A stretch of 64,000 bases of DNA, from positions 2,752,279 through 2,816,278 of the forward strand of contig NC_014212.1 of NCBI RefSeq assembly GCF_000092125.1, written 5' to 3'. Shown piece after piece: positions 8,940 to 55,560 of this stretch; within the stretch, counting starts at the first letter, position 1, and the number at the start of each line of letters is the position of its first letter. The position numbers and the translations under genes are program-made. Origin of the DNA: Allomeiothermus silvanus DSM 9946 (GTDB taxonomy: Bacteria > Deinococcota > Deinococci > Deinococcales > Thermaceae). The notes under the pieces were generated by a model. The model worked only from the letters and a program-made list of their open reading frames with translations. It was not told where the DNA came from and searched no databases.

Positions 8940-10079
8940 TGAACCCGGACAAACACATGTGAGACTCTAAGCTGGGATAAAAAGAGGGGAACCGACCAGG
9001 AAAGGAGGTTCCCCAGGTGCAGTTTACCACCGTTGGCCGAGAGATATGGAGAGGCGCTAGACAAGCACAGAGGCTGGCCGAGGCCAACGCAAGCGACCCA
9101 GAGGTCCAGGAACGTCTGCGCAAGCTCCGACTGGTCAAAGCCCTGCGTGAAAGTAAAAAGAGCTGGAAGGAGATCCAGGACCTGGTCGGGATCAGCCGGG
9201 CCACCTACCACCGCTGGCAAAAAGCCCTAAAAGAAAAGGGCCTGGCTGGACTCAAACCCCGCTCCCGCCGCCCTAAGCACCTGCGCACAAAGGTCCACTG
9301 GACCCCAGGGCTGCTCATTAGAATAGAAACTCTCCGCAAGGAAAACCCCACCTGGGGACGCTGGTCCATCTGGCTTACCCTCCGCAAGGAGGGTTTCCAG
9401 ATGAGCGAACGCACGGTGGGGCGCATCCTGGCCTACCTGGAGAAGCACCGACGTATCGAGAGCGTGGCCGGCTACCTGGCCCGGACTCAAAGAGGGAAGC
9501 TAAAGCGAAGGGTAAACCGGCCCTACGCCAAAAGGAAGCCCCGAGGATACGAGGCCAGGGCTCCTGGGGACCTGGTCCAGGTGGACACCCTCACCCTGAC
9601 CTTAGGACCGGGAAGCATGGTCAAGCACTTCTCGGCGATTGACCTCCATAGCCGGTTTGTCCTGGCGGAGGTGCACAGCCGGGCCACGGCTAAGCTTTCT
9701 GAGGGGTTCTTGTCCTTGCTTCTGGCCAGGGCCCCTTTTCCCATCCGGGCCATCCAGGTGGATGGGGGCAGCGAGTTCATGGCCGAGTTTGAGGAGGCCT
9801 GCTGTGCTCTGGGGATTGCCTTGTTTGTGCTACCGCCGAGGAGTCCTAAACTCAATGGTCACGTGGAGCGGATGCAGCGGACCTTCAAGGAGGAGTTCTA
9901 CACCCGGCCTTTGCCCACCCCGCTCAGCGAGCTGCAGGCAGAGCTGGATACCTACCTGGACTACTACAACCGCCGAAGGCCTCACATGGCCCTGGGGGGT
10001 CTTGCTCCGCTGGAGTTTTTGGCTAAGATGCAAGAGGAGTCGGTTCCTCAAAGAGTCTCAAATGTGTTGACCGATTACA
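8940..10079 (+). mobile_element. IS481-family insertion sequence, copy B
   Basis: A full 1,140-bp copy of the element described for copy A. It is flanked by a perfect 5-bp direct repeat GGGTC (8935-8939 and 10080-10084), showing simple insertion without later rearrangement at this site. It lies between the small membrane protein and the iron-uptake promoter. Confidence 0.95.
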
Positions 10080-10087
10080 GGGTCTAG
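9017..10087 (+). CDS. IS481-family transposase, copy B
   Basis: The same 354 element-encoded residues as copy A, with the helix-turn-helix and the D190/D249/E284 triad intact. The GTG start is eight bases after AAGGAGG. The stop codon comes from the target: the frame leaves the element after LTDY, reads Arg-Val across the duplicated GGGTC and stops at the following TAG. Confidence 0.92.
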   Translation: MQFTTVGREIWRGARQAQRLAEANASDPEVQERLRKLRLVKALRESKKSWKEIQDLVGISRATYHRWQKALKEKGLAGLKPRSRRPKHLRTKVHWTPGLLIRIETLRKENPTWGRWSIWLTLRKEGFQMSERTVGRILAYLEKHRRIESVAGYLARTQRGKLKRRVNRPYAKRKPRGYEARAPGDLVQVDTLTLTLGPGSMVKHFSAIDLHSRFVLAEVHSRATAKLSEGFLSLLLARAPFPIRAIQVDGGSEFMAEFEEACCALGIALFVLPPRSPKLNGHVERMQRTFKEEFYTRPLPTPLSELQAELDTYLDYYNRRRPHMALGGLAPLEFLAKMQEESVPQRVSNVLTDYRV

Positions 10088-11296: not shown

Positions 11297-12574
11297 ATGC
11301 GGATTTTGTTTGCGGTTGTTCTTCTACTGGCCAGCGCCTCCGCTCAGGCGGATTACCCGCTGGCGAAATCCCTGGCCGATGGGGTGATTCTGCCCACCTA
11401 CACCGAGCTGTTGGCGCGACTGAAGGGGCTAGAGGGAGCCGCTCGGAGCCTAAAGGCCAAACCCACCCCCGCCAACCTGGAAGCCGCCCGCACCGCCTGG
11501 CGGGCGGCCCGCATTCCCTACGAGCGCGCCGAGGGATTCGCCTTCGGCCCCATCGGCGACTACGACCCCTTGCTCGATACCTGGCCCATCGACCGGGAGG
11601 GGCTCGAGGCCTTGCTTAAGGGAAGCCAACCCCTGAGCGCGGCGGATTTCGCCAAGCTGCCCTCGGAGGTGCGCGGCTTCCACGCGGTTGAATACCTCCT
11701 GTGGGGCCTCAAGGGGCAGAAAAAAGCCGCACAGCTGCGCCCGCGCGAACTGCAGTACATCGAGCTGGCCAGCGCCGACATGGTGCGCCAGGCCAAGGCC
11801 AACCTCACTGCCTGGCAGCAAGGCTTTTACGCCCGCTTCACCCGCCCCTCCGACCTCTATAAAAGCGAAGCCGCCGCGCTCGACGAGATCATCGGGGGTC
11901 TGGTGGGGATCATCGCCGAGATCGCTGATGAAAAGCTGGGCAATCCCCTTCAGGCCAACGACCCGCTGGTAGCGGAGAGCCCGTTTTCAGGGAACTCCCT
12001 CGAGGACTACCGGCAAGACCTCGAGGGAGCCCGCCGGTACTACCTCGGCGGCCAGCCCGCGTCGCAAAAAGCCGGGATCGGCGGTTGGATCGCAGCCCAG
12101 GACCCCGGGAGCCATGCCGCCATCTTGCGTGCGTTCGATATAGCTAAAGAAGCATTGGCTGCTATCCCCTCTCCACTTTCCGAAGCTTTGCAAACCCCCA
12201 AGGGCCAGGCGCGGATCAAGACCGCCCAGGCTGCATTGCAAAACCTGCGCGGGCTTCTCGAAAGCCGCGCGGTGGGGCTCGTTCGTCAGCAGCAAAGCCC
12301 CTTTGACCAGCTACGCTCGCAGCTACGGGCGGTTTCGGACGAGTACATCGGCGAAGGGGAGATCGGCGAGGCGCTCGAGGCCTTTGACGGCGTACACACC
12401 GCCATGGCCCGTCTGCGGCCCTTGCTGAAGAGCCCGCAAACCTGGCAAGATCTCGAGCAGGCCCTACGAAAGCTCGAGGACCTGGTGCGCTCCGGTGCAC
12501 CTGCCGCCGAGGTGAAGGCCGCCCTCGAGCAACTGAACCAGGCCATCAGCATAGCTGAACAAGCGACGAGATGA
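11297..12574 (+). CDS. imelysin (M75)-family iron-uptake protein
   Basis: A secreted protein of the imelysin/EfeO (M75) family, which acts in iron handling outside the cytoplasmic membrane; proteolytic activity is doubtful for the family. A short signal peptide (MRILFAVVLLLASASAQA) precedes the helical M75 domain. Its GxHxxE signature is at residues 127-132 (GFHAVEYLLWG). The region beyond about residue 240 is a further helical repeat (DLEGARRYYLGG, DIAKEALAAI), matching the two-part EfeO-like layout. It is wedged between the binding protein and a di-haem protein, overlapping the latter by 4 bp. Confidence 0.8.
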   Translation: MRILFAVVLLLASASAQADYPLAKSLADGVILPTYTELLARLKGLEGAARSLKAKPTPANLEAARTAWRAARIPYERAEGFAFGPIGDYDPLLDTWPIDREGLEALLKGSQPLSAADFAKLPSEVRGFHAVEYLLWGLKGQKKAAQLRPRELQYIELASADMVRQAKANLTAWQQGFYARFTRPSDLYKSEAAALDEIIGGLVGIIAEIADEKLGNPLQANDPLVAESPFSGNSLEDYRQDLEGARRYYLGGQPASQKAGIGGWIAAQDPGSHAAILRAFDIAKEALAAIPSPLSEALQTPKGQARIKTAQAALQNLRGLLESRAVGLVRQQQSPFDQLRSQLRAVSDEYIGEGEIGEALEAFDGVHTAMARLRPLLKSPQTWQDLEQALRKLEDLVRSGAPAAEVKAALEQLNQAISIAEQATR

Positions 12575-24169: not shown

Positions 24170-24252
24170 TGTAATCGGTCAACACATTTGAGACTCTTTG
24201 AGGAACCGACTCCTCTTGCATCTTAGCCAAAAACTCCAGCGGAGCAAGACCC
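24170..24252 (-). mobile_element. 83-bp fragment of the IS481-family element
   Basis: This is the right-end 83 bp of the same element, identical to 24253-24335 and ending at GACCC where full copy C begins. It shows that a copy of the element already sat here and that copy C now lies head-to-tail against its end. Confidence 0.9.
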
Positions 24253-25315
24253 TGTAATCGGTCAACACATTTGAGACTCTTTGAGGAACCGACTCCTCTT
24301 GCATCTTAGCCAAAAACTCCAGCGGAGCAAGACCCCCCAGGGCCATGTGAGGCCTTCGGCGGTTGTAGTAGTCCAGGTAGGTATCCAGCTCTGCCTGCAG
24401 CTCGCTGAGCGGGGTGGGCAAAGGCCGGGTGTAGAACTCCTCCTTGAAGGTCCGCTGCATCCGCTCCACGTGACCATTGAGTTTAGGACTCCTCGGCGGT
24501 AGCACAAACAAGGCAATCCCCAGAGCACAGCAGGCCTCCTCAAACTCGGCCATGAACTCGCTGCCCCCATCCACCTGGATGGCCCGGATGGGAAAAGGGG
24601 CCCTGGCCAGAAGCAAGGACAAGAACCCCTCAGAAAGCTTAGCCGTGGCCCGGCTGTGCACCTCCGCCAGGACAAACCGGCTATGGAGGTCAATCGCCGA
24701 GAAGTGCTTGACCATGCTTCCCGGTCCTAAGGTCAGGGTGAGGGTGTCCACCTGGACCAGGTCCCCAGGAGCCCTGGCCTCGTATCCTCGGGGCTTCCTT
24801 TTGGCGTAGGGCCGGTTTACCCTTCGCTTTAGCTTCCCTCTTTGAGTCCGGGCCAGGTAGCCGGCCACGCTCTCGATACGTCGGTGCTTCTCCAGGTAGG
24901 CCAGGATGCGCCCCACCGTGCGTTCGCTCATCTGGAAACCCTCCTTGCGGAGGGTAAGCCAGATGGACCAGCGTCCCCAGGTGGGGTTTTCCTTGCGGAG
25001 AGTTTCTATTCTAATGAGCAGCCCTGGGGTCCAGTGGACCTTTGTGCGCAGGTGCTTAGGGCGGCGGGAGCGGGGTTTGAGTCCAGCCAGGCCCTTTTCT
25101 TTTAGGGCTTTTTGCCAGCGGTGGTAGGTGGCCCGGCTGATCCCGACCAGGTCCTGGATCTCCTTCCAGCTCTTTTTACTTTCACGCAGGGCTTTGACCA
25201 GTCGGAGCTTGCGCAGACGTTCCTGGACCTCTGGGTCGCTTGCGTTGGCCTCGGCCAGCCTCTGTGCTTGTCTAGCGCCTCTCCATATCTCTCGGCCAAC
25301 GGTGGTAAACTGCAC
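24179..25315 (-). CDS. IS481-family transposase, copy C
   Basis: The 354 element-encoded residues match the other copies, triad included. Because the next sequence is the 83-bp fragment of the same element in another frame, translation continues for 24 extra residues (RVLLRWSFWLRC and onward) before a stop. Whether this long foreign tail affects activity is unknown. Confidence 0.9.
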   Translation of the reverse strand: MQFTTVGREIWRGARQAQRLAEANASDPEVQERLRKLRLVKALRESKKSWKEIQDLVGISRATYHRWQKALKEKGLAGLKPRSRRPKHLRTKVHWTPGLLIRIETLRKENPTWGRWSIWLTLRKEGFQMSERTVGRILAYLEKHRRIESVAGYLARTQRGKLKRRVNRPYAKRKPRGYEARAPGDLVQVDTLTLTLGPGSMVKHFSAIDLHSRFVLAEVHSRATAKLSEGFLSLLLARAPFPIRAIQVDGGSEFMAEFEEACCALGIALFVLPPRSPKLNGHVERMQRTFKEEFYTRPLPTPLSELQAELDTYLDYYNRRRPHMALGGLAPLEFLAKMQEESVPQRVSNVLTDYRVLLRWSFWLRCKRSRFLKESQMC

Positions 25316-31899: not shown

Positions 31900-33038
31900 T
31901 CTTGTAGCAGCTCCTTATACAAGGCTAGGGTTGCCTCTACCATCTTATCCACGGTGAACTGTTGCACCCGAATCCGGCTGTTCTCCCCCATACGCCTGCG
32001 CAAAGCCGTATCTGATAACAGCAAATCCAGCGATTGGGCAAAACCCTGTATATCCCCTATTGGTACGACAAAGCCGTTTTCACCTTCCCTGATGGCCAGC
32101 TCGGTGCCCCCTACCCGGGTAGCCACGAGGGGCAGCCCCTCCGCCATAGCCTCCAGAAGCACGTAAGGAAAGCCCTCATAAACGCTGGATAGAGCAAAGA
32201 TGTCAAAGGCGCGCATGGTTTGCCGCCCGTCCATAAACCCTGGCCAGATAACCCGGTCTTCCAGCGCCAACTCTCGCGCTCTTTGCTTTAAGGTGTTCCC
32301 TAGGGGTCCATCCCCCACCATCACCAAGCGAGCCTGAGGGTTTTTTGGAGCGACTTTGGCAAAGGCGTCAAGCAAAATAAGAGGGGCCTTCTGCGAGACA
32401 AAGCGGCCCACGAAGCCTACAGCCAAGTCGTTATGACCCAGGCCCAACCTTCCCCGCACTTCTTCTCTTGCTTCCCCTTGCGAGGTTCTTAGACCGATGG
32501 CGTTGGGAATAATCCGCACTTTTTCCCTGGGATAACCTAAACGAATAGCCTCTCTAGCCTCATCCTCGGAGACAGCGATGAGGGTGCTAGTAAGGGGCGA
32601 CAATCCACGCTCCACCAAGCCGTAAACCCAGCGCGCAGCATCGTTAATTTCGGGGGAAAGGGTAATGAAGGCGTGGGGAGTGTACACCGCCTTTGCACTC
32701 CCTAGCAATCGCAACAGCCGGGCCAACCCCCCTGCCTTGGAGCTATGCCCATGCACCAGGTCAAAGAGACCCGCCTGCTTCAAATACTTCCTCAGAGCGA
32801 GTAGGGCTTTCAGATCGCCAGGATGGGGAGCACGACGCAGGGGAAGTTCTAAAAGCCGCACCCCACTTTGGCGCAACAGAGGTAGTCCCCCCTCCAGGAT
32901 CCGATCCATACGCAGAGGAGAGTAAGCTAGGTGCACTTCCACCCCCTGCCCGGCCAACCCCACACACAGGTCCACCACGTGCCGGGCTGTACCTCCACCG
33001 GTGGCTTCCAAAATATGCAGAACCCGCACTACAGCCAC
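31896..33038 (-). CDS. glycosyltransferase family 4
   Basis: A GT-B fold cytoplasmic glycosyltransferase of 380 residues. The N-terminal acceptor half has HILEATGGGTARHVVDL and LVHGHSSKAGGLARL. The donor half has VGFVGRFVSQKAPLILLDAF, LVMVGDGPLG and the E-x7-E block SSVYEGFPYVLLEAMAEGLPLVAT. It overlaps the initiating transferase gene by 4 bp and the preceding GT2 gene by 10 bp. Its linkage is unknown. Confidence 0.85.
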   Translation of the reverse strand: MAVVRVLHILEATGGGTARHVVDLCVGLAGQGVEVHLAYSPLRMDRILEGGLPLLRQSGVRLLELPLRRAPHPGDLKALLALRKYLKQAGLFDLVHGHSSKAGGLARLLRLLGSAKAVYTPHAFITLSPEINDAARWVYGLVERGLSPLTSTLIAVSEDEAREAIRLGYPREKVRIIPNAIGLRTSQGEAREEVRGRLGLGHNDLAVGFVGRFVSQKAPLILLDAFAKVAPKNPQARLVMVGDGPLGNTLKQRARELALEDRVIWPGFMDGRQTMRAFDIFALSSVYEGFPYVLLEAMAEGLPLVATRVGGTELAIREGENGFVVPIGDIQGFAQSLDLLLSDTALRRRMGENSRIRVQQFTVDKMVEATLALYKELLQE

Positions 33039-33829
33039 CCCCGACGGGACTCAAGGCGACGTTTGAGCGCCTGAACCCAGGGGACAGGAATCACAAGCAG
33101 CAGCAGATTTTTTAGCAATCCCAACCAGCTTTCCTTTCGCCGGAGTTCAAAAAAGCGCATCATGACCCGCAGGCGGTTCCAAACCTGTTTGCGCCGTTTA
33201 GTAAGGGATATGCCTTTGGGATTCCAGTACACCTCCACTACAACATAGTCAAGGTTTGCCGTTTTGTAGCTCTTAGCAATACGAAAAAAAAGTTCATAGT
33301 CCTCTACGGCTTTAAAGTGCTCGGAGTACAAGCCCACCGCACGCAACACCGAGGTACGCAACATCACCGCAGGGTGAATGAAGCAGTTACGAGCGTGCAT
33401 GGTCCGACGGATCTCCTCGTGTGTCTCGGGAAAGCGCTCTCGGAATACCTCCCGCCCCTCGCCGTCCACGAAGCGGACCTGCCCTCCCACCAAAGCGTAG
33501 TCAGGATGCTCTTCCAAAAACCTAAGCTGGGCAAGGAAACGCCCTGGCAAAGCAATATCCCCCGCGTCCAGTCGGGCCACGTATTCGTAACCTCGAGTTA
33601 GAATCCACTCCAGCCCATGGTTCAAAGCATGCTCTATCCCTTGGTTTTGCTCCAGACGCAACAAGTACCCCTGGTGGGGAAATGGTAGTTCTGGCAACGT
33701 AATCGGCGGTTGGCTACCATCGTCCACCACTACCACGCCCAAAGGAATCTCCGTGGGAAGCGTGGAAAGACTGAACTCGAGCCCCTTCTGGTCGTTATAA
33801 ACCGGGATGAGTAGGGCTACCCTACACAT
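33029..33829 (-). CDS. GT2 glycosyltransferase, chimeric copy 1
   Basis: A GT-A fold glycosyltransferase of 266 residues with LIPVYNDQKGLE, VVVDDGS and the metal-binding region YVARLDAGDIALPGRF. Its first 122 residues are identical at DNA level to those of the GT2 gene 1,960 bp away, while the acceptor-binding half differs (here FPETHEEIRRTMHARNCFIHP). VEDYELFFRIAK is the catalytic-base region. The gene overlaps the wzy stop by 8 bp. It probably adds one sugar of the repeat unit; the donor is unknown. Confidence 0.85.
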   Translation of the reverse strand: MCRVALLIPVYNDQKGLEFSLSTLPTEIPLGVVVVDDGSQPPITLPELPFPHQGYLLRLEQNQGIEHALNHGLEWILTRGYEYVARLDAGDIALPGRFLAQLRFLEEHPDYALVGGQVRFVDGEGREVFRERFPETHEEIRRTMHARNCFIHPAVMLRTSVLRAVGLYSEHFKAVEDYELFFRIAKSYKTANLDYVVVEVYWNPKGISLTKRRKQVWNRLRVMMRFFELRRKESWLGLLKNLLLLVIPVPWVQALKRRLESRRGWL

Positions 33830-33963
33830 TTTTAATCTCCCTATTGACCCTTCCTCTGGATGCTAAGAAAAGCCCCATCACAAACCAAAACAGCGGTTCC
33901 GCACCTCTAAATTGCACAAAACAACCTAGGAAATAGAGCACAAGATAGGTCCCTATTTCGTCC
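33465..33963. repeat. 499-bp direct repeat, unit 1
   Basis: Identical base for base, as far as I can read, to 35425-35923. It covers the 5' 365 bp or so of GT2 copy 1 and the last 142 bp of the wzy gene. The offset between units is 1,960 bp. Confidence 0.93.
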
Positions 33964-34995
33964 TTAGCTGTAAATATGCGACTCCTTCTCATCGTCCAAA
34001 ATACCAACCAAAGCCAAGACAACAATCCCAGGGGGCCAAAATCCAAAAGCACCTGAAGATAATAATTATGCACATTATCTTCTAGAAATTCACTTCCAGT
34101 AACTCTTTCTATTGCAGGTATGGCATTCCCAGCACCATAACCAGCTATCGGCATTTGCTGGAGCACCGCTAGGGCTCCAGACCACATTTTTAGGCGAGTA
34201 GATGATCCCGGCTCTTGGCCAATCTGCGTGAAGCGCTCTATACTATGAGGATTTATAACGTAAAGAAGGATGCCGCTGAACAAAGCAACGACCAAGAGCA
34301 CAAAGACCGTATAAAATCTGCGAGCAGAAACCACTTGGATTATTGCCAAAAGAAGAGCAAGTAGTATACCAATGCGGCTAGCATAAAGCGTGGACACTAC
34401 TACAGCAAAGGCCCAATACAGCCAAAACATCTTGCTTTTCCTAAAAAAAGCCGCGTTCATGACCAGCCAGGTGGCCTCCAAATTTGGGCCTCCTCCGTAT
34501 AACCAAGCCAACTCCGGATGAGCGTAAGGATTTTGCAGATATTCATAAATACTTTGCCAAGAAAATATTGTTTTAGCAGCAACTACCAAAAGTAGGAACC
34601 AGGCAGCTACTTGTAGAGCTGTTATTCCTGAACTACATCTCAAGGTTCGACAAACGTGATATCCTACATAAAGTGGCAACAAAGCAAACAAATAGTTTAG
34701 TATGAGAAAGTTAAATCCATACGACGCAAGGGATAAGATTGAAGATACAAAAGCAACCAAAAAGAAAGATGCGAGCGGCAACCACTGATATAGGGTAATG
34801 CGAAAAGCGGGGATAGAAAACAAAAAAAAATATAAAGATAATTAAATGGAATGGTTTTATAGTTATTTTATAAATATCAAATGAAACGGATTGTATGCTT
34901 AACAATATAAAAATTAGAGCAATAGGAAGCGCACGCACAGAGCCAAGCCAAGATTCAGTCATAGGCGAGCTTGATTTTTTCAATCCTATAGCCAT
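33822..34995 (-). pseudogene. O-antigen polymerase/ligase family (Wzy), frameshifted at an A9 tract
   Basis: Two overlapping frames together make one polytopic membrane protein of about 390 residues. The first (from 34995) reads MAIGLKKSSSPMTESW and a hydrophobic run to KPFHLIIFIFF. The second resumes at FSIPAFRITLYQWLPLASFF and ends at 33822, with the loop GYGAGNAIPAIERVTGSEF and DNVHNYYLQVLLDFGPLGLLSW typical of Wzy proteins. The break is exactly at nine A residues (34822-34830, T9 in the gene), so slippage could restore or abolish the frame. The region is clearly richer in A+T than the rest of the locus. Confidence 0.75.
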
Positions 34996-35789
34996 TCTAC
35001 AACCTCATCGCCTAACACTTTTTTTACGAAGGCAATAATGCGTTTCGGGAAAATAAATGTAAAGATACACTTAAACAAACCTAGGTAGCTCTCTATTAGC
35101 CTTGGGTTGAAGTGACACAACATTACTCTTAGGGTGCTCCACAGTTGCATATTGCGCTTTCTAGAGGAAATCCCATTCGGGTTAAGCCTGTAAATCAATA
35201 CCTCATCTGGTAAGTTAGCTACTTTAAATCGCTTTAGTATTCGGAAAAAAAGTTCGTAGTCTTCAGCGGCCTTGTAACGATCACTATAGAAGCCTATCTC
35301 TTGCAAAACCCGTGCACGCATCATAACAGTTGGGTGTGGGAAGGAATTTCTAACATGCATACTCCGACGAAGGTCCGCATCTACCGTATGATAGCGTTTT
35401 TTAGTGATCGTATTTCCTTGTAAATCCACGAAGCGGACCTGCCCTCCCACCAAAGCGTAGTCAGGATGCTCTTCCAAAAACCTAAGCTGGGCAAGGAAAC
35501 GCCCTGGCAAAGCAATATCCCCCGCGTCCAGTCGGGCCACGTATTCGTAACCTCGAGTTAGAATCCACTCCAGCCCATGGTTCAAAGCATGCTCTATCCC
35601 TTGGTTTTGCTCCAGACGCAACAAGTACCCCTGGTGGGGAAATGGTAGTTCTGGCAACGTAATCGGCGGTTGGCTACCATCGTCCACCACTACCACGCCC
35701 AAAGGAATCTCCGTGGGAAGCGTGGAAAGACTGAACTCGAGCCCCTTCTGGTCGTTATAAACCGGGATGAGTAGGGCTACCCTACACAT
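34986..35789 (-). CDS. GT2 glycosyltransferase, chimeric copy 2
   Basis: A 267-residue GT-A glycosyltransferase whose first 122 residues are identical to copy 1. The shared part holds the nucleotide-sugar binding segments (VVVDDGS, RLDAGD). After RFVD the sequence diverges (LQGNTITKKRYHTVDADLRRSMHVRNSFPHP) but remains related, with AAEDYELFFRILKRF conserved. This suggests the same donor and different acceptor. It overlaps the wzy start by 10 bp. The unique half is A+T-rich, consistent with recent acquisition. Confidence 0.85.
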   Translation of the reverse strand: MCRVALLIPVYNDQKGLEFSLSTLPTEIPLGVVVVDDGSQPPITLPELPFPHQGYLLRLEQNQGIEHALNHGLEWILTRGYEYVARLDAGDIALPGRFLAQLRFLEEHPDYALVGGQVRFVDLQGNTITKKRYHTVDADLRRSMHVRNSFPHPTVMMRARVLQEIGFYSDRYKAAEDYELFFRILKRFKVANLPDEVLIYRLNPNGISSRKRNMQLWSTLRVMLCHFNPRLIESYLGLFKCIFTFIFPKRIIAFVKKVLGDEVVEWL

Positions 35790-35923
35790 TTTTAATCTCC
35801 CTATTGACCCTTCCTCTGGATGCTAAGAAAAGCCCCATCACAAACCAAAACAGCGGTTCCGCACCTCTAAATTGCACAAAACAACCTAGGAAATAGAGCA
35901 CAAGATAGGTCCCTATTTCGTCC
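35425..35923. repeat. 499-bp direct repeat, unit 2
   Basis: Same sequence as 33465-33963. Outside the repeat the flanks differ on both sides. Recombination between the units would remove 1,960 bp containing the wzy body and one GT2 C-terminal half, and would leave a single intact GT2 gene. Confidence 0.93.
35782..35923 (-). pseudogene. 3' remnant of a wzy gene inside the repeat
   Basis: This 142-bp piece encodes the last 46 residues or so of the same Wzy protein (GTYLVLYFLGCFVQFRGAEP and on to REIKNV) without any upstream body. It is the scar of the duplication or recombination that made the two GT2 genes. From 35924 to the next stop codon only 32 bp of unmatched A+T-rich DNA remain. Confidence 0.85.
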
Positions 35924-35955: not shown

Positions 35956-36849
35956 CTATTTACTATTACTGCTCTTCCATGGACTTCTAAATCCATCCTT
36001 AATTCCCTTAAGGAGCCAACGAAAGTTATAAGCCGAAGGGTATCTCCATAAATATTTCCCTATGCCTTTAGCAAAAGAAAGAGCTATCCTAACCTTTTCT
36101 TTAGGAAAAAAGGCCTTGCTCCACAGGAGGATCCACAGTTTGTTTCTAATTTCGTAATAAAATCTTTCTGGTTTGATTCCTTCTAGCGAATGGTACTTAT
36201 GTGACGTTTTATGAACTACTCTGCTAGCTGGTACAAGGACTCCCAGCTCGGATTTGAGTATCCTTGCTGTATATTCAACGTCGTCATTCCATATAAAATA
36301 TTCCTTGATAGGTAAACCATAGGAAGCCACTGCCTGACAGTGGATGAGAAGAGAAACAAAAGAGGCCGAACGTATAGAAAGGAAAGACAACTCTATAGTT
36401 CTTATAAGAAGATCGTAGTCGTTGGTCTTAACATTGGCAATGTTCATCGGGTGCAAAGCACCATCTGTCCACACAACCTTGCTTGCCAATATAAAGGGTT
36501 GTTTTACCTTTTCCTCGAGCGCCTGAGCTGCAAGCTCTAACTCAACTAGGGCTTTTTTATCAGGAATAGTGTCGTCATCCATAAGCCAAAGCCAGTTGTA
36601 CCCCTCCTCGTAAGCCCTCTTCATCCCCTCGTGAAAGCCCCCCGCTCCCCCTTGGTTTTCGAGCAGCCTGAAGACCTCCACCTGGGGGAACTCCTCCTTG
36701 AGCATCTCCGGGGTGCCGTCGGTGGAGGCGTTATCCACCACCAGCACGTGGTCTGGGCGACGGGCCTGGGAAAGCACCGCACTCAGACACTCCCGAAGAA
36801 GCTCTTTGCGGTTATACGTCACAATCACCGCACAAACTGTTTTACCCAT
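35956..36849 (-). CDS. GT2 glycosyltransferase, likely galactofuranosyltransferase
   Basis: A GT-A fold enzyme of 297 residues: CAVIVTYNRKELLRECLSA, VVDNASTDGTPEML, WLWLMDDDTIPD (DXD) and EYFIWNDDVEYTARI near the catalytic base. The WLMDDD and W.DD.E signature is shared by the rhamnosyl/galactofuranosyl-transferase group. Its start overlaps the UDP-galactopyranose mutase stop by 8 bp, so use of UDP-galactofuranose is a reasonable inference. The 3' half is A+T-rich while the 5' half has host-like composition. Confidence 0.8.
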   Translation of the reverse strand: MGKTVCAVIVTYNRKELLRECLSAVLSQARRPDHVLVVDNASTDGTPEMLKEEFPQVEVFRLLENQGGAGGFHEGMKRAYEEGYNWLWLMDDDTIPDKKALVELELAAQALEEKVKQPFILASKVVWTDGALHPMNIANVKTNDYDLLIRTIELSFLSIRSASFVSLLIHCQAVASYGLPIKEYFIWNDDVEYTARILKSELGVLVPASRVVHKTSHKYHSLEGIKPERFYYEIRNKLWILLWSKAFFPKEKVRIALSFAKGIGKYLWRYPSAYNFRWLLKGIKDGFRSPWKSSNSK

Positions 36850-37963
36850 GGGCTAACTCCTCAAATAGCTTTAGCGCCCGGGCCACTGCCTGGTCCATGT
36901 TGTAGTAGCGGTAGTCCCCAAGCCGACCTGCAAAGAGCACCGTCTCGAGCTTCTCCGCCTCCCTCAGGTAAAGCCGGTATCTCTCCTCGTTCTCCTCCCG
37001 CGGCACCGGGTAGTAGGGCTCATTCTTCTTGGGCTCGTAGGCCTCTGGGTACTCGTAACAGAGGACGGTATGGGGAAGGTAAGCCTGCCCCGTTAGGTGC
37101 TTGAACTCGGTGACACGGGTGTAGGGGTGCTCGTTCGGGTAGTTCACCGTCCCCACATCCTGGAACCAAGGCCCGGGGTGACTTTCCAAGCGGAACCTTA
37201 GGGAGCGGTAGGGCAAGGGACCGTGGAGGTAGTCGAAGAACTCGTCCATGGGCCCCGTGAAGATGAGCCGGTCAAACTTGATCTCCTCTTCCACCTCCTT
37301 CCAATCTGCCCCCAAGAGCACCTTGATATTGGGGTGGGCAAGCATCCGCCGGAAGAGGGCCGTGTACCCCTCCTTGGGCATGGCCTGGTAGGTGTCCTGG
37401 AAGTAGCGGGTGTCATAGCTCACTAAGACGGGCACCCGAGCCGTCACCGTAGGAGAGAGTTCCTCAGGGCGTAGGCCCCACTGCTTCAGGGTATAGCTTT
37501 CGAACACGTTTTTGTAGACATAGTCCGCCAGGAAACGGAGATCTGGATCTTCGATTTCTTTCAGCTTCAGTATAGGCACCCGCGCCCCGTAGCCGCAGTG
37601 AGCTATGAGCTTTTCCTCCAACTTATCCGCAAGCCTCTCGGAAAAGAGTGCCCTTAAGGAGGCCAAGCTAAAGGGAAGGGGGATCTCCTTCCCTTCGATC
37701 ACCGCCCGCACCCGGTGGTAGTAGGGCCGCCACTCGGTGAAGCGGGAAAGATGGTCGAAAACCTTCTTGCTATTGGTGTGGAAGATATGGGGGCCATATT
37801 TGTGCACCAACACCCCGTGCTCGTCGTAGTAATCGTAGGCATTACCTGCAATGTGATTGCGCCGTTCTACCACGAGCACCTTTTGCCCCAACTGAGAGGC
37901 GATGCGCTCGGCTAAAACTGCGCCAGTGTAACCCGCTCCTACAATCAGCCAGTCTACCTTCAC
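36842..37963 (-). CDS. glf: UDP-galactopyranose mutase
   Basis: A flavoenzyme that interconverts UDP-galactopyranose and UDP-galactofuranose, the donor for galactofuranose-containing surface polymers. It shows the FAD-binding VDWLIVGAGYTGAVLAERIA, RRNHIAGNAYDYYDEHGVLVHKYGPHIFHT, KQWGLRPEEL, and the C-terminal FAGRLGDYRYYNMDQAVARAL. The start is the GTG (giving MKVDWLIVG) with GGAGGAAT seven bases upstream, overlapping the flippase stop (GTGA). That gives 373 residues, normal for the family. Confidence 0.93.
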   Translation of the reverse strand: MKVDWLIVGAGYTGAVLAERIASQLGQKVLVVERRNHIAGNAYDYYDEHGVLVHKYGPHIFHTNSKKVFDHLSRFTEWRPYYHRVRAVIEGKEIPLPFSLASLRALFSERLADKLEEKLIAHCGYGARVPILKLKEIEDPDLRFLADYVYKNVFESYTLKQWGLRPEELSPTVTARVPVLVSYDTRYFQDTYQAMPKEGYTALFRRMLAHPNIKVLLGADWKEVEEEIKFDRLIFTGPMDEFFDYLHGPLPYRSLRFRLESHPGPWFQDVGTVNYPNEHPYTRVTEFKHLTGQAYLPHTVLCYEYPEAYEPKKNEPYYPVPREENEERYRLYLREAEKLETVLFAGRLGDYRYYNMDQAVARALKLFEELAHG

Positions 37964-39243
37964 GCTGTATTCCTCCGCATTTGCCAGGGGGTTTTGCCGC
38001 TGCGCCAAAGATAAAACAAGATACCCCCTGTTACGAATACCTCTACCAAGACCACGACGTAAGCCATGCCAACATGAGCTAGCCTGGGCACCAGCACCAG
38101 GGCCAGCCCAAGGTTCAGCAGGCCCGCCATCAAGATTACAACGTTGAACGGGCGATCCAGCCCTAAAGCCAGCATCCACTGAATGCCTAGCGCATTGCTC
38201 AGGGCAATCATGGGCAGTAATAGGGCAAGAATACGCATCAGCGGCGCGGCTGGTTCATAGCCTGTTCCCAACAAAAGTTTCACGATCCAAGGAGCCAGGA
38301 TGGCCACCAAACAAGCCCCTATCAATCCCCCCAACCCCATGACTACTGTCACCCTACTAGCGAGCCATGCAGCATCCCGCATAGAGTATCTGGCCAAATG
38401 GCTCAGGCGGGGAAAGAAGGTGCGGTTGAGGGGCTCGAGCATGCCCAAAAAGGCCTTGGTCAGCCGCTCAGCTCCAGCGTAATAGGCCACCAGATGTGGA
38501 GCGACAAAAAGCCCCAGGATAAATACGTTGCCCACGGTGTACAAGCTTACTGCCGCACGAAAGAAGAACAAACTCCAGCCCGAGCGTAAGGCCTCCAAAA
38601 CGATATGCCATCCAGCCCAGCGGAAGCCCACCTCGCGGTAAGCCCAAAAAAGAGCCAGACCGCTGGCCAGCGCTGAAGAGAGGCCTTGTAAAAACAGCAC
38701 CTTCCAGGCATCGGAGGGTTCACGTACCAGAGCGAAAATGAGAATCAGGCTCGCTAATTTTGTGCCTACCTCGAGCCCAGCCACCAAACGCAAACGCTCT
38801 AATCCCTGGAAAAACCAAATCGGGCTGAAAGCCCAGGCTACCGCCCAGAAAACACCGGACCATAAGAGAGGGGGATTACGCCCCAAATTATCCACCCACA
38901 GGCTCAGCAGGAACGTCAATAAGATGGCGAGTAGCGCCAAAATCAGCTTGGCCCCAGAAACCCCCGCCAACAGCTCAGCCAACTTGGTTTGATCTGTTCG
39001 GTACCGCGCAACTTCGCGAGTGGCCGAGAGGTTGAAGCCATACTCAACGAGTAGACTTAAGTACTGAGCAAATGACTGTACGATGGCCACAGACCCCCAA
39101 CCCTCCGGCCCCAGAACCCTGGCCAGATAAGGAAGCGTAAGGAGGGGCAGCAGGTAATTGGCAAACTGCACCCCATAAAGGGCTAGAAGGTTCTGCACGG
39201 TGCTCCCCCTGAGGAGCTGGCCTGCTCGAGCAGCTATGTTCAC
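37960..39243 (-). CDS. polysaccharide flippase (Wzx type)
   Basis: A MATE-like polysaccharide transporter with about 12-14 transmembrane helices over 427 residues, expected to flip lipid-linked repeat units across the inner membrane. N-terminal features are typical: LALYGVQFANYLLPLLTLPYLARVLGPEGWG and AQYLSLLVEYGFNLSATREVA. It is followed by glf with a 4-bp overlap. A 181-bp stretch separates it from the MNT gene upstream. Confidence 0.88.
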   Translation of the reverse strand: MNIAARAGQLLRGSTVQNLLALYGVQFANYLLPLLTLPYLARVLGPEGWGSVAIVQSFAQYLSLLVEYGFNLSATREVARYRTDQTKLAELLAGVSGAKLILALLAILLTFLLSLWVDNLGRNPPLLWSGVFWAVAWAFSPIWFFQGLERLRLVAGLEVGTKLASLILIFALVREPSDAWKVLFLQGLSSALASGLALFWAYREVGFRWAGWHIVLEALRSGWSLFFFRAAVSLYTVGNVFILGLFVAPHLVAYYAGAERLTKAFLGMLEPLNRTFFPRLSHLARYSMRDAAWLASRVTVVMGLGGLIGACLVAILAPWIVKLLLGTGYEPAAPLMRILALLLPMIALSNALGIQWMLALGLDRPFNVVILMAGLLNLGLALVLVPRLAHVGMAYVVVLVEVFVTGGILFYLWRSGKTPWQMRRNTA

Positions 39244-40144: not shown

Positions 40145-40516
40145 CTAGCCGGGGCCCAGGCGGCTGTGCCAGCGCCAGGCGGTCTTTACGATGCCTTCGA
40201 GGTCCCACCGGGCCTGCCAGCTTAGCACCCGCCCTGCCTTGGCCGGGTCGGCCACTAGCTCAGGAGGGTCTCCGGAGCGTCTGGGCGCCTACACGAAAGG
40301 CACCTCGTGCCCCCCAACCTGCTCCACCATCCCGATCACCTGGCGCACACTGTGGCCGGTACCGGTACCCAGGTTAAAGACATCGGACGCACCGCCCTCC
40401 CACAAGTATTCCAGCGCCCGCACATGGGCCTGGGCCAGATCGGCCACGTGAATGTAGTCGCGGATCGCCGTGCCATCGGGGGTGGGATAGTCGGTACCGA
40501 AGACCCGCATGCTCAT
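40145..40516 (-). pseudogene. galE: 5'-truncated UDP-glucose 4-epimerase (galE) remnant
   Basis: Only the C-terminal third of a GalE remains: VFGTDYPTPDGTAIRDYIHV, AQAHVRALEYL, NLGTGTGHSVRQVI and, beyond an in-frame TAG (40289-40291), [18 protein letters not shown] and [14 protein letters not shown]. The NAD-binding domain and catalytic Tyr-Lys are missing. The ATG overlaps the stop of the preceding epimerase gene (ATGA), so the fragment up to the TAG may still be translated. UDP-galactose would need another epimerase. Confidence 0.85.
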
Positions 40517-42831
40517 AAGCGCTCCTCTTTGAAATAGGCGATGGTGCGCAGCAAGCCCTCCCTTACCGGAACCTTGGGCTCCCAGCCCAAAAGCTCGCGG
40601 GCCAGGGTGATGTCCGGACGGCGCTGCTTGGGGTCGTCCTGGGGGAGCGGCTCGTGCACAATGGGCAAGCTAGTCCCCACCAGCTCCTGCACCAGCCGGG
40701 CCAGCTCGAGCATGGTGTATTCCTCCGGGTTTCCCAAGTTGACCGGCTCGGGGTAATCCACCGCCATCAGCCGCGCGATGCCCTCTACCAGGTCATCCAC
40801 ATACTGAAAACTGCGGGTCTGGGAACCGTCGCCATAGACCGTGAGCGGCTCGCCCCGCAGGGCCTGGGCGATGAAGTTGGTGACCACCCGCCCGTCCTCA
40901 GGGTCCATGCGCGGGCCGTAGGTGTTGTGGCAGAAGACGCCATTTCCTGCGACGAAGTTTTCTGCTTCCGGTACAGAAAAGTCGTAGACCGTAGCTGTGA
41001 CAAGACAGGGCCTGACCTCCTTGACCGTGCTCCAGACGATATCCCCTTCCCGTCGGGCGTTGAGCTTTTGACATACGCCCTGGTCCCAAGAGAGGAGATC
41101 AAAGTTGTCCAGAGCACACACCGTCACCCGGTAAAAAGGATAGCGCTTAGCGGCGGTTTTCTTTCTGCCTACCCAAGACTCGTAGCGCCCCATGCTGGCC
41201 ACGATGCCAAAGCGGAGGAGAAGGTAGACGAGTCCATAAGCGATCTCCTCCGAAGCCGTGTCAAATACGAGCTCGTTGCCGAGCTTCTTGCCGCTATGGG
41301 TGCCATCCCCACAACGGTAACCTTCCAAAAAGTATTTTAGACGAGAGAGGGGAAGCTGAAGCACCCAGGAAGGAATCCGCTTTTGCAGCCCCAAAACTTG
41401 GGTGAAGAGGACGTAAAGGGCCCTAGAGTGGAGATAGAGCCCGGGGGCGCGGCGGGGGCTAGGCGGGATGTACCCCACCTTTGCCCTGAAATAGGTTTCA
41501 AGGATTTCCCTAGCCTTACGAACAAACGCATCATCGGAAGATAGGCTGATGAAGTACCTGCGCTTCGCCCCATACGCTCCGCCCTCGGCTAGGTACAGGC
41601 CGAAAAGCCATAGGAGGTCCTCCGTTACCCGCACCCAGTTGGGCAACCAGACGTTGGAGTCTCCGTAGAGGCCGAACTCCGCCCCCTCGGGCACTTCCCA
41701 GCCCAAGGCCTGAAGCACGGCGAGGGGAACAAGCCCTTGACGCATCCACTGCTTCGTGGCACAGGTGGCAGAGTTGCGGGCGTTGGGTCCCCGGAAGCGT
41801 CCTTGATTTAGGGCTATCTCATGAAGGCGCTCCCGTTCCGCCTCGATGCGTCCGGAGAAGGTGGGGTGGCGTACCGCCCAGCGCCACAGCCACTCGGGAG
41901 AGCCATCCAAGGAAGCGAAGCTCTGGGCAAGGTTCAAGACCTCGAGGTCCTGCTCCAAGACCGCTAGGCGGGCGGGCACGGCTACGTAATCTCCCGGCCT
42001 CAGCTCCCGAACGGGCTTAGCCACAGGCTTGCCATCGGGCCCCCGAACAAAGAGGCTGTGGTCCCCCGTTACCTTGACGGTACGGCCGTAGCGGAGGCGA
42101 ACCTCATAGGCTTCCTGCTGAACTGGGTGCCCGATGAAGTAAGTAGCCCGTTTAAGCTCTACCCGAAGGTCCTCCGGATCAAAGCTGGGAACCAGGACTT
42201 CCCTAGGAACCTCTGGGGCCAAGCCTACCCGCTCGGCATAGGTTTCGGCCGTTTCCAGGTGAGCTTGCCCGTCGTTAAAGAAAAAGAGGTACTCGTCCGC
42301 AAGGACACTGTTGAAGATGCGGATGATCCGCACCGGCACCCCGTAGGTGCGGTGATAGGCCAGGGTCAGGGTCTCGGCGTAGCGCTTGGCCTCGTCGTAG
42401 ACCGAGCGGGGGCCAATGGGGTTGACATTGCCCCAGTAGGTCTCGGGCTGGGGGTGCACCAGGGGGTCGCCGTAGACCTCGCTGGTCGAGGCCAGGAAAA
42501 AAGCGGCTTTGCGGGCTAAAGCCAGCTCCAAGAGGTGCCGGGTACCCTCGGCGTTTACCCGCATAGTCTCGAGGGGCATCTTCAGGTAGCGGGGAGGGGA
42601 GGCCGGGGAGGCAAAGTGCATCACCCAGTCGAAGGCTCCCGCGACCTCGAGCGGCCTCGCAGCATCGGCCTCGAGGAAGCTGAAGCCGGCAAAGGGGGTG
42701 AGGTACTCGAGGTTTTGCCGCTGCCCGGTACAGAAGTTGTCTACCCCCAAGACCTTGTGCCCTTCCCTAAGGAGGCGTTCGGCCAGGTGGCTGCCGACGA
42801 AGCCTGCGGCTCCGGTGAGCAGGATGCGCAT
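40513..42831 (-). CDS. UDP-glucuronate decarboxylase interrupted by an intein
   Basis: The two host parts join to a 310-residue short-chain dehydrogenase/reductase that matches UDP-xylose synthase (UXS). It has GAAGFVGSHLAERLL, HFASPASPPRYLKMP, LASTSEVYGDPLVHPQPE, YWGNVNPIGPRSVYDEAKR (catalytic Tyr/Lys) and RIFN-TYGPRMDPEDGRVV. It decarboxylates UDP-glucuronate to UDP-xylose in the cytoplasm, and its substrate would come from the UDP-glucose dehydrogenase encoded just upstream. Residues 175-636 are an in-frame intein between Asn174 and Thr637. The enzyme can only be active after splicing because RIFNTYGPRM lies at the substrate-binding site. Reading both halves in one open frame with intact splice residues suggests a functional precursor. 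Confidence 0.9.
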   Translation of the reverse strand: MRILLTGAAGFVGSHLAERLLREGHKVLGVDNFCTGQRQNLEYLTPFAGFSFLEADAARPLEVAGAFDWVMHFASPASPPRYLKMPLETMRVNAEGTRHLLELALARKAAFFLASTSEVYGDPLVHPQPETYWGNVNPIGPRSVYDEAKRYAETLTLAYHRTYGVPVRIIRIFNSVLADEYLFFFNDGQAHLETAETYAERVGLAPEVPREVLVPSFDPEDLRVELKRATYFIGHPVQQEAYEVRLRYGRTVKVTGDHSLFVRGPDGKPVAKPVRELRPGDYVAVPARLAVLEQDLEVLNLAQSFASLDGSPEWLWRWAVRHPTFSGRIEAERERLHEIALNQGRFRGPNARNSATCATKQWMRQGLVPLAVLQALGWEVPEGAEFGLYGDSNVWLPNWVRVTEDLLWLFGLYLAEGGAYGAKRRYFISLSSDDAFVRKAREILETYFRAKVGYIPPSPRRAPGLYLHSRALYVLFTQVLGLQKRIPSWVLQLPLSRLKYFLEGYRCGDGTHSGKKLGNELVFDTASEEIAYGLVYLLLRFGIVASMGRYESWVGRKKTAAKRYPFYRVTVCALDNFDLLSWDQGVCQKLNARREGDIVWSTVKEVRPCLVTATVYDFSVPEAENFVAGNGVFCHNTYGPRMDPEDGRVVTNFIAQALRGEPLTVYGDGSQTRSFQYVDDLVEGIARLMAVDYPEPVNLGNPEEYTMLELARLVQELVGTSLPIVHEPLPQDDPKQRRPDITLARELLGWEPKVPVREGLLRTIAYFKEERL
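40924..42309 (-). other. intein with LAGLIDADG homing endonuclease
   Basis: A 462-residue protein intron with all expected blocks. Ser1 opens block A (SVLADEYLFFFN) after host Asn. Block B is VTGDHSLFV, and RELRPGDYVAVP is the N4-type block. LAGLIDADG motif 1 is LFGLYLAEG and motif 2 is FLEGYRCGDG, with RIPSWVLQLP between and VYLLLRFGIVASM after. Block F is VYDFSVPEAENFV and block G is GNGVFCHN, followed by host Thr. Both endonuclease motifs keep an acidic residue, so nuclease activity is plausible. Confidence 0.93.
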
Positions 42832-42838
42832 GGGCCGA

Positions 42839-44266
42839 CTACCCCTCTACCCGCACGGCTCGTGGCGCTTCTTTCGCCGCGAGGCGGGGAGGCTCGAGCG
42901 GGTTCAAGCCAATCCCCACGTAGCGGAAGCCAAGAGCAGCCATCTGCGCGCGGTCCAGAAAGTTACGGCCATCCACCAACACCGCCCGGCGCATCCGGCG
43001 GGCCATCTCCTCCCAAGGCAGTTCGCGGTACATGGCCCATTCCGTCACCAACACCAAGGCATCGGCCTCCTCGGCCACCTCCTCAGGGGTCTCGCAGTAA
43101 TGGAGGGCCAGGTGGGGGTGCTCGCGGCGGGCCTTTTCCATCGCCACTGGATCGTGCACGCGCACCCGCACCCCCCGCTCGATGAGCCTATGGGCGATAT
43201 CCAAAGCCGGAGCATCACGCAGGTCGTCGGTGTTGGGTTTGAAGGCCAACCCCAAGAGGCCGATGGTGCGGCCTTTGAGGATCTTCAACTCGGCCAATAG
43301 CTTCTCCACGATCCGCTCGCGCTGGCGGTAGTTGACCTCGCGAGCCGCCGCCACGATGGGCATGGAGAGGCCGTAATCCTGGGCAGTGGCGATGAGGGCA
43401 GCGGTGTCCTTGCCGAAGCAGCTCCCACCCCAGCCGATGCCCGCCTGGAGAAACCGGGTGCCGATGCGGGCATCGAGGCCGATACCCTTGGCGATCTGGG
43501 TCACGTCGGCCCCCACCCGCTCGGCCAAGGCCGCGATCTCGTTGATAAAGCTGATCTTGAGGGCCAAGAAAGCATTGGCCGAATACTTGATCAGCTCCGC
43601 CGAGGTAAGGTCGGTGGCGATGAAGGGCACCGCCTGCAGCCCCTCGGGACGGGGGATGAACGAGGGGGGGGTAAAGGTCTGCTCGAGGATGGGGCGGTAG
43701 AGGGTGTAGAGCACCTCGAGCGCGCGCTGATCCTCCGCTCCGACTACCATCCGGTCGGGGTAGAGGCTATCGTGGATGGCCGAGCCTTCACGCAAGAACT
43801 CGGGGTTGGAAGCCACCGCCAGATGTTCCTGGAAGAGCTTGCCCTGCCTAGTAGCAAAGGCCTCGTGGATCAAAGCGTCCACCCAGTTTCCGCTACCGAT
43901 AGGCACGGTGGATTTGTTAACCACTACAGTGAAGCCCTCACCTATATGCTCGCCAATCCCCGCTGCAGCAGCTTGAAGATATTGGAGGTCGGGGTTGCCG
44001 TCGGGAAGGGGCGGAGTACCCACCGCGATAAAGATCACGTCGGCTTCGGGAACAGCTTCGGCGTAGCTGTCGGTGAAAGCCAGGCGCTCGGCGGCCAGGG
44101 ACAAAAGCTCCTCGAGCCCCGGCTCGTAGATGGGGGCCTTCCCTGCTTTGAGGGAGGCCAGTTTGGCCGGGTTGACGTCCACACAGGTGACGTGATGCCC
44201 CACATACGCCAGCGTCACCCCGGTGGTGATCCCTACGTATCCCGTCCCAATAACCGCTACTTTCAT
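42839..44266 (-). CDS. UDP-glucose 6-dehydrogenase
   Basis: Oxidises UDP-glucose twice, using NAD, to UDP-glucuronate. The 475-residue protein has the N-terminal GTGYVGITTG nucleotide loop, KSTVPIGSG, NPEFLREGSAIHD, the catalytic cysteine 283 in GWGGSCFGKDT and the C-terminal LGLAFKPNTDDLRDAPA. Its gene precedes the UXS gene by 7 bp, giving a UDP-glucose to UDP-xylose route. It could also supply glucuronate to the polymer directly. Confidence 0.93.
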   Translation of the reverse strand: MKVAVIGTGYVGITTGVTLAYVGHHVTCVDVNPAKLASLKAGKAPIYEPGLEELLSLAAERLAFTDSYAEAVPEADVIFIAVGTPPLPDGNPDLQYLQAAAAGIGEHIGEGFTVVVNKSTVPIGSGNWVDALIHEAFATRQGKLFQEHLAVASNPEFLREGSAIHDSLYPDRMVVGAEDQRALEVLYTLYRPILEQTFTPPSFIPRPEGLQAVPFIATDLTSAELIKYSANAFLALKISFINEIAALAERVGADVTQIAKGIGLDARIGTRFLQAGIGWGGSCFGKDTAALIATAQDYGLSMPIVAAAREVNYRQRERIVEKLLAELKILKGRTIGLLGLAFKPNTDDLRDAPALDIAHRLIERGVRVRVHDPVAMEKARREHPHLALHYCETPEEVAEEADALVLVTEWAMYRELPWEEMARRMRRAVLVDGRNFLDRAQMAALGFRYVGIGLNPLEPPRLAAKEAPRAVRVEG

Positions 44267-54337: not shown

Positions 54338-55477
54338 TGAACCCGGACAAACACATGTGAGACTCTAAGCTGGGATAAAAAGAGGGGAACCGACCAGGAA
54401 AGGAGGTTCCCCAGGTGCAGTTTACCACCGTTGGCCGAGAGATATGGAGAGGCGCTAGACAAGCACAGAGGCTGGCCGAGGCCAACGCAAGCGACCCAGA
54501 GGTCCAGGAACGTCTGCGCAAGCTCCGACTGGTCAAAGCCCTGCGTGAAAGTAAAAAGAGCTGGAAGGAGATCCAGGACCTGGTCGGGATCAGCCGGGCC
54601 ACCTACCACCGCTGGCAAAAAGCCCTAAAAGAAAAGGGCCTGGCTGGACTCAAACCCCGCTCCCGCCGCCCTAAGCACCTGCGCACAAAGGTCCACTGGA
54701 CCCCAGGGCTGCTCATTAGAATAGAAACTCTCCGCAAGGAAAACCCCACCTGGGGACGCTGGTCCATCTGGCTTACCCTCCGCAAGGAGGGTTTCCAGAT
54801 GAGCGAACGCACGGTGGGGCGCATCCTGGCCTACCTGGAGAAGCACCGACGTATCGAGAGCGTGGCCGGCTACCTGGCCCGGACTCAAAGAGGGAAGCTA
54901 AAGCGAAGGGTAAACCGGCCCTACGCCAAAAGGAAGCCCCGAGGATACGAGGCCAGGGCTCCTGGGGACCTGGTCCAGGTGGACACCCTCACCCTGACCT
55001 TAGGACCGGGAAGCATGGTCAAGCACTTCTCGGCGATTGACCTCCATAGCCGGTTTGTCCTGGCGGAGGTGCACAGCCGGGCCACGGCTAAGCTTTCTGA
55101 GGGGTTCTTGTCCTTGCTTCTGGCCAGGGCCCCTTTTCCCATCCGGGCCATCCAGGTGGATGGGGGCAGCGAGTTCATGGCCGAGTTTGAGGAGGCCTGC
55201 TGTGCTCTGGGGATTGCCTTGTTTGTGCTACCGCCGAGGAGTCCTAAACTCAATGGTCACGTGGAGCGGATGCAGCGGACCTTCAAGGAGGAGTTCTACA
55301 CCCGGCCTTTGCCCACCCCGCTCAGCGAGCTGCAGGCAGAGCTGGATACCTACCTGGACTACTACAACCGCCGAAGGCCTCACATGGCCCTGGGGGGTCT
55401 TGCTCCGCTGGAGTTTTTGGCTAAGATGCAAGAGGAGTCGGTTCCTCAAAGAGTCTCAAATGTGTTGACCGATTACA
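54338..55477 (+). mobile_element. IS481-family insertion sequence, copy D
   Basis: A full 1,140-bp copy flanked by a perfect 5-bp duplication CCAAG (54333-54337 and 55478-55482). It interrupts the small secreted-protein gene in opposite orientation to it. Confidence 0.95.
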
Positions 55478-55560
55478 CCAAGCAGCACCGGATACCCGGT
55501 ATAAATACCATAGCCAGCGCTCTGGGCCGAAGCCACCGATACCGCCAACGCTACCGCTAA
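54415..55560 (+). CDS. IS481-family transposase, copy D
   Basis: Same 354 residues as the other copies, with triad and helix-turn-helix intact. The frame leaves the element into the antisense of the disrupted host gene, adding 27 residues (beginning TKQHRIPGINTIASALG) before a stop. Confidence 0.92.
   Translation: MQFTTVGREIWRGARQAQRLAEANASDPEVQERLRKLRLVKALRESKKSWKEIQDLVGISRATYHRWQKALKEKGLAGLKPRSRRPKHLRTKVHWTPGLLIRIETLRKENPTWGRWSIWLTLRKEGFQMSERTVGRILAYLEKHRRIESVAGYLARTQRGKLKRRVNRPYAKRKPRGYEARAPGDLVQVDTLTLTLGPGSMVKHFSAIDLHSRFVLAEVHSRATAKLSEGFLSLLLARAPFPIRAIQVDGGSEFMAEFEEACCALGIALFVLPPRSPKLNGHVERMQRTFKEEFYTRPLPTPLSELQAELDTYLDYYNRRRPHMALGGLAPLEFLAKMQEESVPQRVSNVLTDYTKQHRIPGINTIASALGRSHRYRQRYR

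Follow-up and report, generated by a model that had tools for sequence, protein, structure and literature searches.

A probable recent copying event within a polysaccharide operon of Meiothermus silvanus: a hybrid glycosyltransferase gene and a wzy polymerase gene between perfect direct repeats

We find that the front half of a GT2 glycosyltransferase gene (GTC) in a surface-polysaccharide operon of the thermophile Meiothermus silvanus DSM 9946 has probably been copied, recently and in one direction, onto a neighbouring GT2 gene, yielding a hybrid (GTB) and leaving the polymerase gene wzy between two identical direct repeats. Throughout, the window denotes the whole stretch of 64 kb that was analysed, and its relevant features are collected in Table 1. 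As the original prediction had it, the two repeat units match at all 499 positions (0 mismatches, offset 1960) and differ outside: identity falls at once beyond the edges on both sides, and chance is far too improbable as a source of such a match. The 95% upper bound on divergence between the copies is 0.6% per site, which implies that the 499-bp block was copied recently or has recently been renewed. A genome-wide search returned no third copy of the block in the whole 3.72-Mb genome (3,721,669 bp in total, 3,249,394 bp of it in the chromosome; PMC3035272). The predicted make-up of the units was likewise confirmed: each takes 142 bp from the 3′ end of wzy and 365 bp from the 5′ end of a GT2 gene, with an 8-bp overlap, and encodes the 122 residues that the GTB and GTC proteins have in common. 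Outside the repeat, the flanks on the GT side are ~0.4–0.7 identical in register, the C-terminal halves being homologous there, while those on the wzy side are ~0.22–0.34 identical and thus unrelated sequence.

Table 1. Features of the M. silvanus polysaccharide locus (positions in the window)
Feature	Position	Strand	Basis or remark
Ligase-like Wzy_C protein	30466-28838	-	operon member
Initiating sugar transferase (PGT)	31899-30463	-	name taken from sequence
GT4	33038-31896	-	operon member
GTC, GT2 glycosyltransferase, ancestral, non-chimeric	33029..33829	-	Pfam Glycos_transf_2; 72% to M. ruber full-length, syntenic
Repeat copy 1, original (wzy last 142 bp + GTC first 365 bp, 8-bp overlap)	33465..33963	-	exact 499-bp match to copy 2; M. 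ruber orthologues continuous on both sides
333-codon main ORF of wzy, with Wzy_C domain	33822..34823	-	Pfam Wzy_C (PF04932) E 1.4e-13; 60% to M. ruber wzy
94-codon ORF for the wzy N-terminus, other frame, start overlaps GTB stop	34711..34995	-	aligns with M. ruber wzy start up to T9 tract
T9 tract (A9 on + strand) at wzy frame break	34822..34830	-	sole homopolymer of at least 9 in the 64-kb window
GTB, chimeric GT2 (residues 1-122 = GTC; 123-267 other lineage)	34986..35789	-	kinship step, GC3 step, AlphaFold pLDDT 93
Repeat copy 2, derived (remnant of wzy tail + GTB front half)	35425..35923	-	exact match; wzy body absent upstream; downstream, GT C-half from another lineage
wzy-tail remnant ORF, 53 codons, precedes GTB, ends over GTB start codon	35782..35943	-	ORF in copy 2
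GTA, GlfT1-type GT2, probably mosaic (Thermus-like in codons 1-95, M. ruber-like thereafter)	35956..36849	-	identity and GC3 step
DNA block 75% identical to Thermus genome G041, end at GTA codon 95	36563..38245	.	blastn
GLF, UDP-galactopyranose mutase	36842..37963	-	83% to Thermus, 70% to M. ruber
Flippase	39243-37960	-	operon member
IS481-type transposase copies	4794-5882, 9017-10087, 24179-25315, 54415-55560	-, +, -, +	

The operon lies on the minus strand and reads flippase, GLF, GTA, GTB, wzy, GTC, GT4, initiating sugar transferase and ligase-like Wzy_C protein. In the last of these, a soluble insert (residues 132–224) matches the NCBIfam 'phage head spike fiber' domain above the cut-off. 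Further along the window, a gene resembling NAD-dependent sugar-nucleotide epimerases/decarboxylases (40513–42831, minus strand), which adjoins a UDP-glucose dehydrogenase gene (42839–44266), contains an in-frame LAGLIDADG intein, roughly residues 174–643, at the RIFN/TYGPRM motif; inteins within sugar-nucleotide enzymes seem uncommon. The IS481-type transposase gene is present in four copies that are 100% identical over 1,063–1,065 bp. Two of them, at 24179–25315 and 54415–55560, bracket the polysaccharide cluster in opposite orientation, making an inversion of the whole cluster conceivable.

Which of the two repeat copies is ancestral? Our reference for gene order, Meiothermus ruber DSM 1279 (PMC3035268), has flippase-GLF-GTA-wzy-GTC-GT4-PGT-ligase, the same order as M. 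silvanus without GTB, and we found no repeat of the 499-bp kind in M. ruber. Its wzy and GTC (60% and 72% identical, respectively) align continuously over both edges of copy 1, and copy 1 is therefore the ancestral one. In line with this, GTC is uniform along its length, with a flat GC3 (0.615 in the N-terminal and 0.634 in the C-terminal half) and a C-terminal half that is 56–69% identical to its orthologues in the family. GTB, in contrast, steps in both respects: identity to the family orthologues amounts to 67–78% in its N-terminal half vs 43–51% in its C-terminal half, and GC3 drops from 0.607 to 0.432 at the junction. A sharp passage from identity to divergence thus lies inside GTB, with donor and recipient contexts distinguishable, and sequence comparison shows one chimeric gene rather than the two that had been proposed. 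In the comparison of orthologous loci called for at the outset, M. ruber lacks GTB, and its full-length GTC orthologue in the same place contradicts any chimerism of GTC. What stands is the swap of GT2 halves as such, since an exchange of donor halves between neighbouring genes is supported. A genome of the same genus (G001), considered as a possible empty site, was discarded as it has neither GTC nor wzy nor the flippase.

The hybrid gene has the appearance of an intact enzyme gene. Its frame is open through 267 codons, the GT2 motifs DDGS, LDAGD and AEDYELFFR are retained, and PF00535 is found in GTB, GTC and GTA alike, in keeping with a GT2/GT-A fold. In the AlphaFold model of GTB (mean pLDDT 93), the strand formed by residues 111–121 finishes right at the residue 122 junction, and the closest folds in the PDB are the solved GT2 enzymes WrtF, chondroitin polymerase and SpsA. 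As in GT-A enzymes generally, the part that precedes this junction would form the nucleotide-sugar site, and the part that follows it would contribute the acceptor site and the region of the catalytic base. We infer that GTB took on the donor specificity of GTC and kept its own acceptor preference. Copy 2 also retains a remnant ORF from the wzy tail, and this overlaps GTB in the same way as wzy overlaps GTC, so that translational coupling via the start codon may persist.

The C-terminal half of GTB is 43% identical to that of GTC at the amino acid level and forms a long branch in the tree, outside the GTC orthologues, which come from three genera. Within the family, no GTB-like C-terminal half exceeded 53%, a search with the whole of GTB recovered no GTB-like gene outside the family in the phylum, and an unconverted full-length GTB was found in none of the genomes of family or phylum searched; scanning genome contigs with GTB gave distant GT2s only (best 39%, Flavobacterium). 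In the literature on hybrid glycosyltransferases, we found no precedent closer than the mosaic alleles of the Neisseria pglP type (PMC6959607). There, as in M. silvanus, intragenic recombination reshuffles a glycosyltransferase gene for surface glycans. In Neisseria, however, alleles of one gene are reshuffled and many are pseudogenes, whereas in M. silvanus the front half was taken from a different, neighbouring gene and the resulting chimera is open.

The polymerase gene enclosed by the repeats is itself unusual. A wzy tail is present in both units, as predicted, but the complete wzy is not one open frame, being split at the A9/T9 tract: the 94-codon and the 333-codon ORF jointly match M. 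ruber wzy, and the whole gene spans 34995–33822. Its designation as a polymerase gene draws on the Wzy_C domain together with the polymerase slot in the operon; Pfam alone cannot separate polymerase from ligase. The slot before GTC is taken by an EpsG-type protein in five other genomes; in several Thermaceae the polymerase slot thus varies while GTC stays. Runs of nine A or T are slippage sites, one of which is used by Thermus thermophilus dnaX (PMC1088944). In dnaX and wzy, both from the same bacterial family, such a 9-base coding tract lies where frames must join, yet slippage is proven for the former and read from the sequence for the latter. With the long homopolymer placed at the frame junction, wzy output probably depends on slippage at T9. 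M. ruber wzy, too, changes frame near the gene start, at a T7 tract that lies further upstream than the M. silvanus T9 (locus L042, about 11560–11580), unless an internal TTG start is used. Possible causes of the M. silvanus frame break are transcriptional slippage, replicative phase variation, decay of the gene towards a pseudogene, or a residual 454 homopolymer error, the last being less likely in view of the Illumina polishing (PMC3035272).

How might the hybrid have arisen? We favour a recent non-reciprocal recombination, either by gene conversion or with DNA taken up from siblings, in which the wzy/GTC junction was the donor. The recipient would have been a second, AT-rich GT2 gene between GTA and wzy, whose front half was overwritten. 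One end of the copied tract would have come to lie at a homologous place, the conserved VRFVD at codon 122, while the other would have passed the GT start, entered unrelated sequence and taken along 134 bp of the wzy tail, with the position of wzy between two 499-bp repeats as a by-product. Past the edge, the C-terminal halves of GTB and GTC can still be aligned, and homologous recombination could therefore have ended there; homology on the GT side combined with unrelated sequence on the wzy side fits a one-sided, non-reciprocal event. Since the far end of the tract has no homology to its target, plain two-ended gene conversion does not suffice, and we assume a one-ended illegitimate step. On balance, one-sided copying of the GTC front over a pre-existing GT2 is the probable explanation of GTB and repeats alike. 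That this GT2 was full-length ahead of the conversion is what we infer from the present arrangement. In the Thermus-like genome G024, a broken second GT2 lies between GTA and the EpsG-type polymerase gene (locus L047, 8081–8371), demonstrating that a GT2 can occupy this slot. Its fragment belongs to a different paralogue and is interrupted, so it was rejected as a parallel partial duplication, and no direct repeat of the 499-bp kind was found in G024.

Other histories could lead to the same layout. The arrangement X-R-Z-R-Y is the product of a single crossover, as would result if wzy-GTB, on a circle or on DNA from outside, had recombined, in the manner of a Campbell-type insertion, with the GTC/wzy-tail block of a chromosome previously without the wzy body. 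An excised circle would hold full-length wzy and GTB, and the wzy body and GTB C-terminal half share a low GC content (0.409 and 0.408, respectively). This route is nevertheless unlikely, requiring both that wzy had earlier been lost from a gene order shared with M. ruber and that the donor was identical across 499 bp. The homology of the two GT C-terminal halves would also be accounted for by an old tandem duplication of wzy-GTC, after which the first wzy decayed to its tail and the GT C-terminal half diverged, with ongoing conversion keeping 499 bp identical. We consider this improbable: the GTB C-terminal half stands apart on its long branch and differs in GC, and conversion would have to halt at the same two points every time. 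Finally, exact identity of the copies and the presence of 454 data among the reads could raise the suspicion of an assembly artefact, that is, a false duplication from a collapsed or misjoined repeat. The genome, however, is finished, from 8-kb and fosmid Sanger clones with 26.9x Sanger and 454 coverage, Illumina polishing and repeat finishing (PMC3035272), all four flanks differ and are unique, and both GT2 genes are full-length, which renders such an artefact very improbable.

What could the repeats do once in place? RecA-type recombination is expected between repeats of 499 bp, and in M. silvanus a RecA deletion of 1,960 bp, or a circle with wzy and GTB, is plausible in principle. The arithmetic of the original prediction is correct in that such a deletion would take out the body of wzy together with one acceptor half, leaving a single intact GT2; we further predict that the deletion allele keeps GTA, the 53-codon remnant and GTC, and that the 1,960-bp circle carries wzy and GTB, both full-length. 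Antigenic switching, which had been suggested as a potential consequence, is not supported. The deletion would leave GTC in place and exchange no glycosyltransferase for another; with the polymerase and GTB lost and GTC kept, it would represent a loss and not a switch between glycosyltransferases. We know of no immune host for M. silvanus. The species is known from paper-industry biofilms (PMC3035272), and if excision occurs, escape from phage would be a more natural benefit than antigenic switching.

A documented case of this logic comes from Salmonella Typhimurium DT8/DT30, in which wzy lies between 113-bp repeats and phage-resistant strains have lost 2,558 bp; a wzy circle was detected by PCR, and ~1 in 500 cells are without wzy in the absence of phage (PMC12074656). 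As in Salmonella, a gene for an O-antigen or polysaccharide polymerase is bracketed in M. silvanus by perfect direct repeats, recombination between which would remove about 2 kb, leave one repeat and possibly yield a wzy circle. The Salmonella repeats, though, are intergenic and their excision was observed, whereas those of M. silvanus are coding, probably made by the copying of a GT2 front half, and excision is here a prediction from the sequence. Might they be kept as a phase-variation device, with wzy (and GTB) excised in some cells and regained from siblings, for example to escape phage? Besides the Salmonella precedent and the identical repeats around the polymerase gene, this idea has in its favour that the circle would carry both genes at full length while the chromosome would keep GTC, and that wzy has a slippage tract in addition. 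The repeats are, however, plain coding sequence, and M. ruber is without them, hence they are not conserved as a switch; we deem the idea rather doubtful. Recent copying of a donor half is well supported, and a functioning on/off switch is a possibility.

The one-sided copying that we propose for GTB may have a counterpart next door. GTA is a probable mosaic by sequence comparison, from a similar exchange that seems to have stopped behind the donor half: its first 95 codons share 80–86% identity with Thermus G024 and G041 and 76% with M. ruber, the part after codon 95 is 45% identical to M. ruber and 19–20% to the two Thermus genomes, and the two parts have a GC3 of 0.73 and 0.39, respectively. 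Part of this contrast is due to faster change in acceptor halves, and M. ruber kinship of the N-terminal half is not significantly rejected (AU test, p-AU 0.113), which is why the mosaic is called probable only. The adjoining GLF is 83% identical to G024 and G041 vs 70% to M. ruber, whereas the flippase is closer to M. ruber (71% vs 57% and 47% to the two Thermus genomes); in the DNA comparison, M. ruber is 67% identical over 36548–39221. Given that GTA resembles the galactofuranosyltransferase GlfT1 (the match is below the cut-off), the mutase producing UDP-galactofuranose appears to have moved together with the half expected to bind this sugar nucleotide.

Taken together, the observation behind the original prediction is confirmed and its interpretation, half right, is partly supported. 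As a tentative and rather speculative picture for the Thermaceae, donor halves of GT2 enzymes might be exchanged as a module, sometimes along with the gene for the donor sugar (GLF with the part of GTA that serves UDP-galactofuranose), and the acceptor halves be kept or swapped, to which would be added here a RecA-excisable wzy-GTB cassette with a second, slippage-based control of wzy. Copying of this type can put a polymerase gene between repeats and is thereby a simple possible origin of wzy excision as seen in Salmonella. With GTB adjoining the very gene that supplied its donor half, at 0/499 differences, M. silvanus offers a natural test of whether the two halves of GT2 enzymes set donor and acceptor separately.
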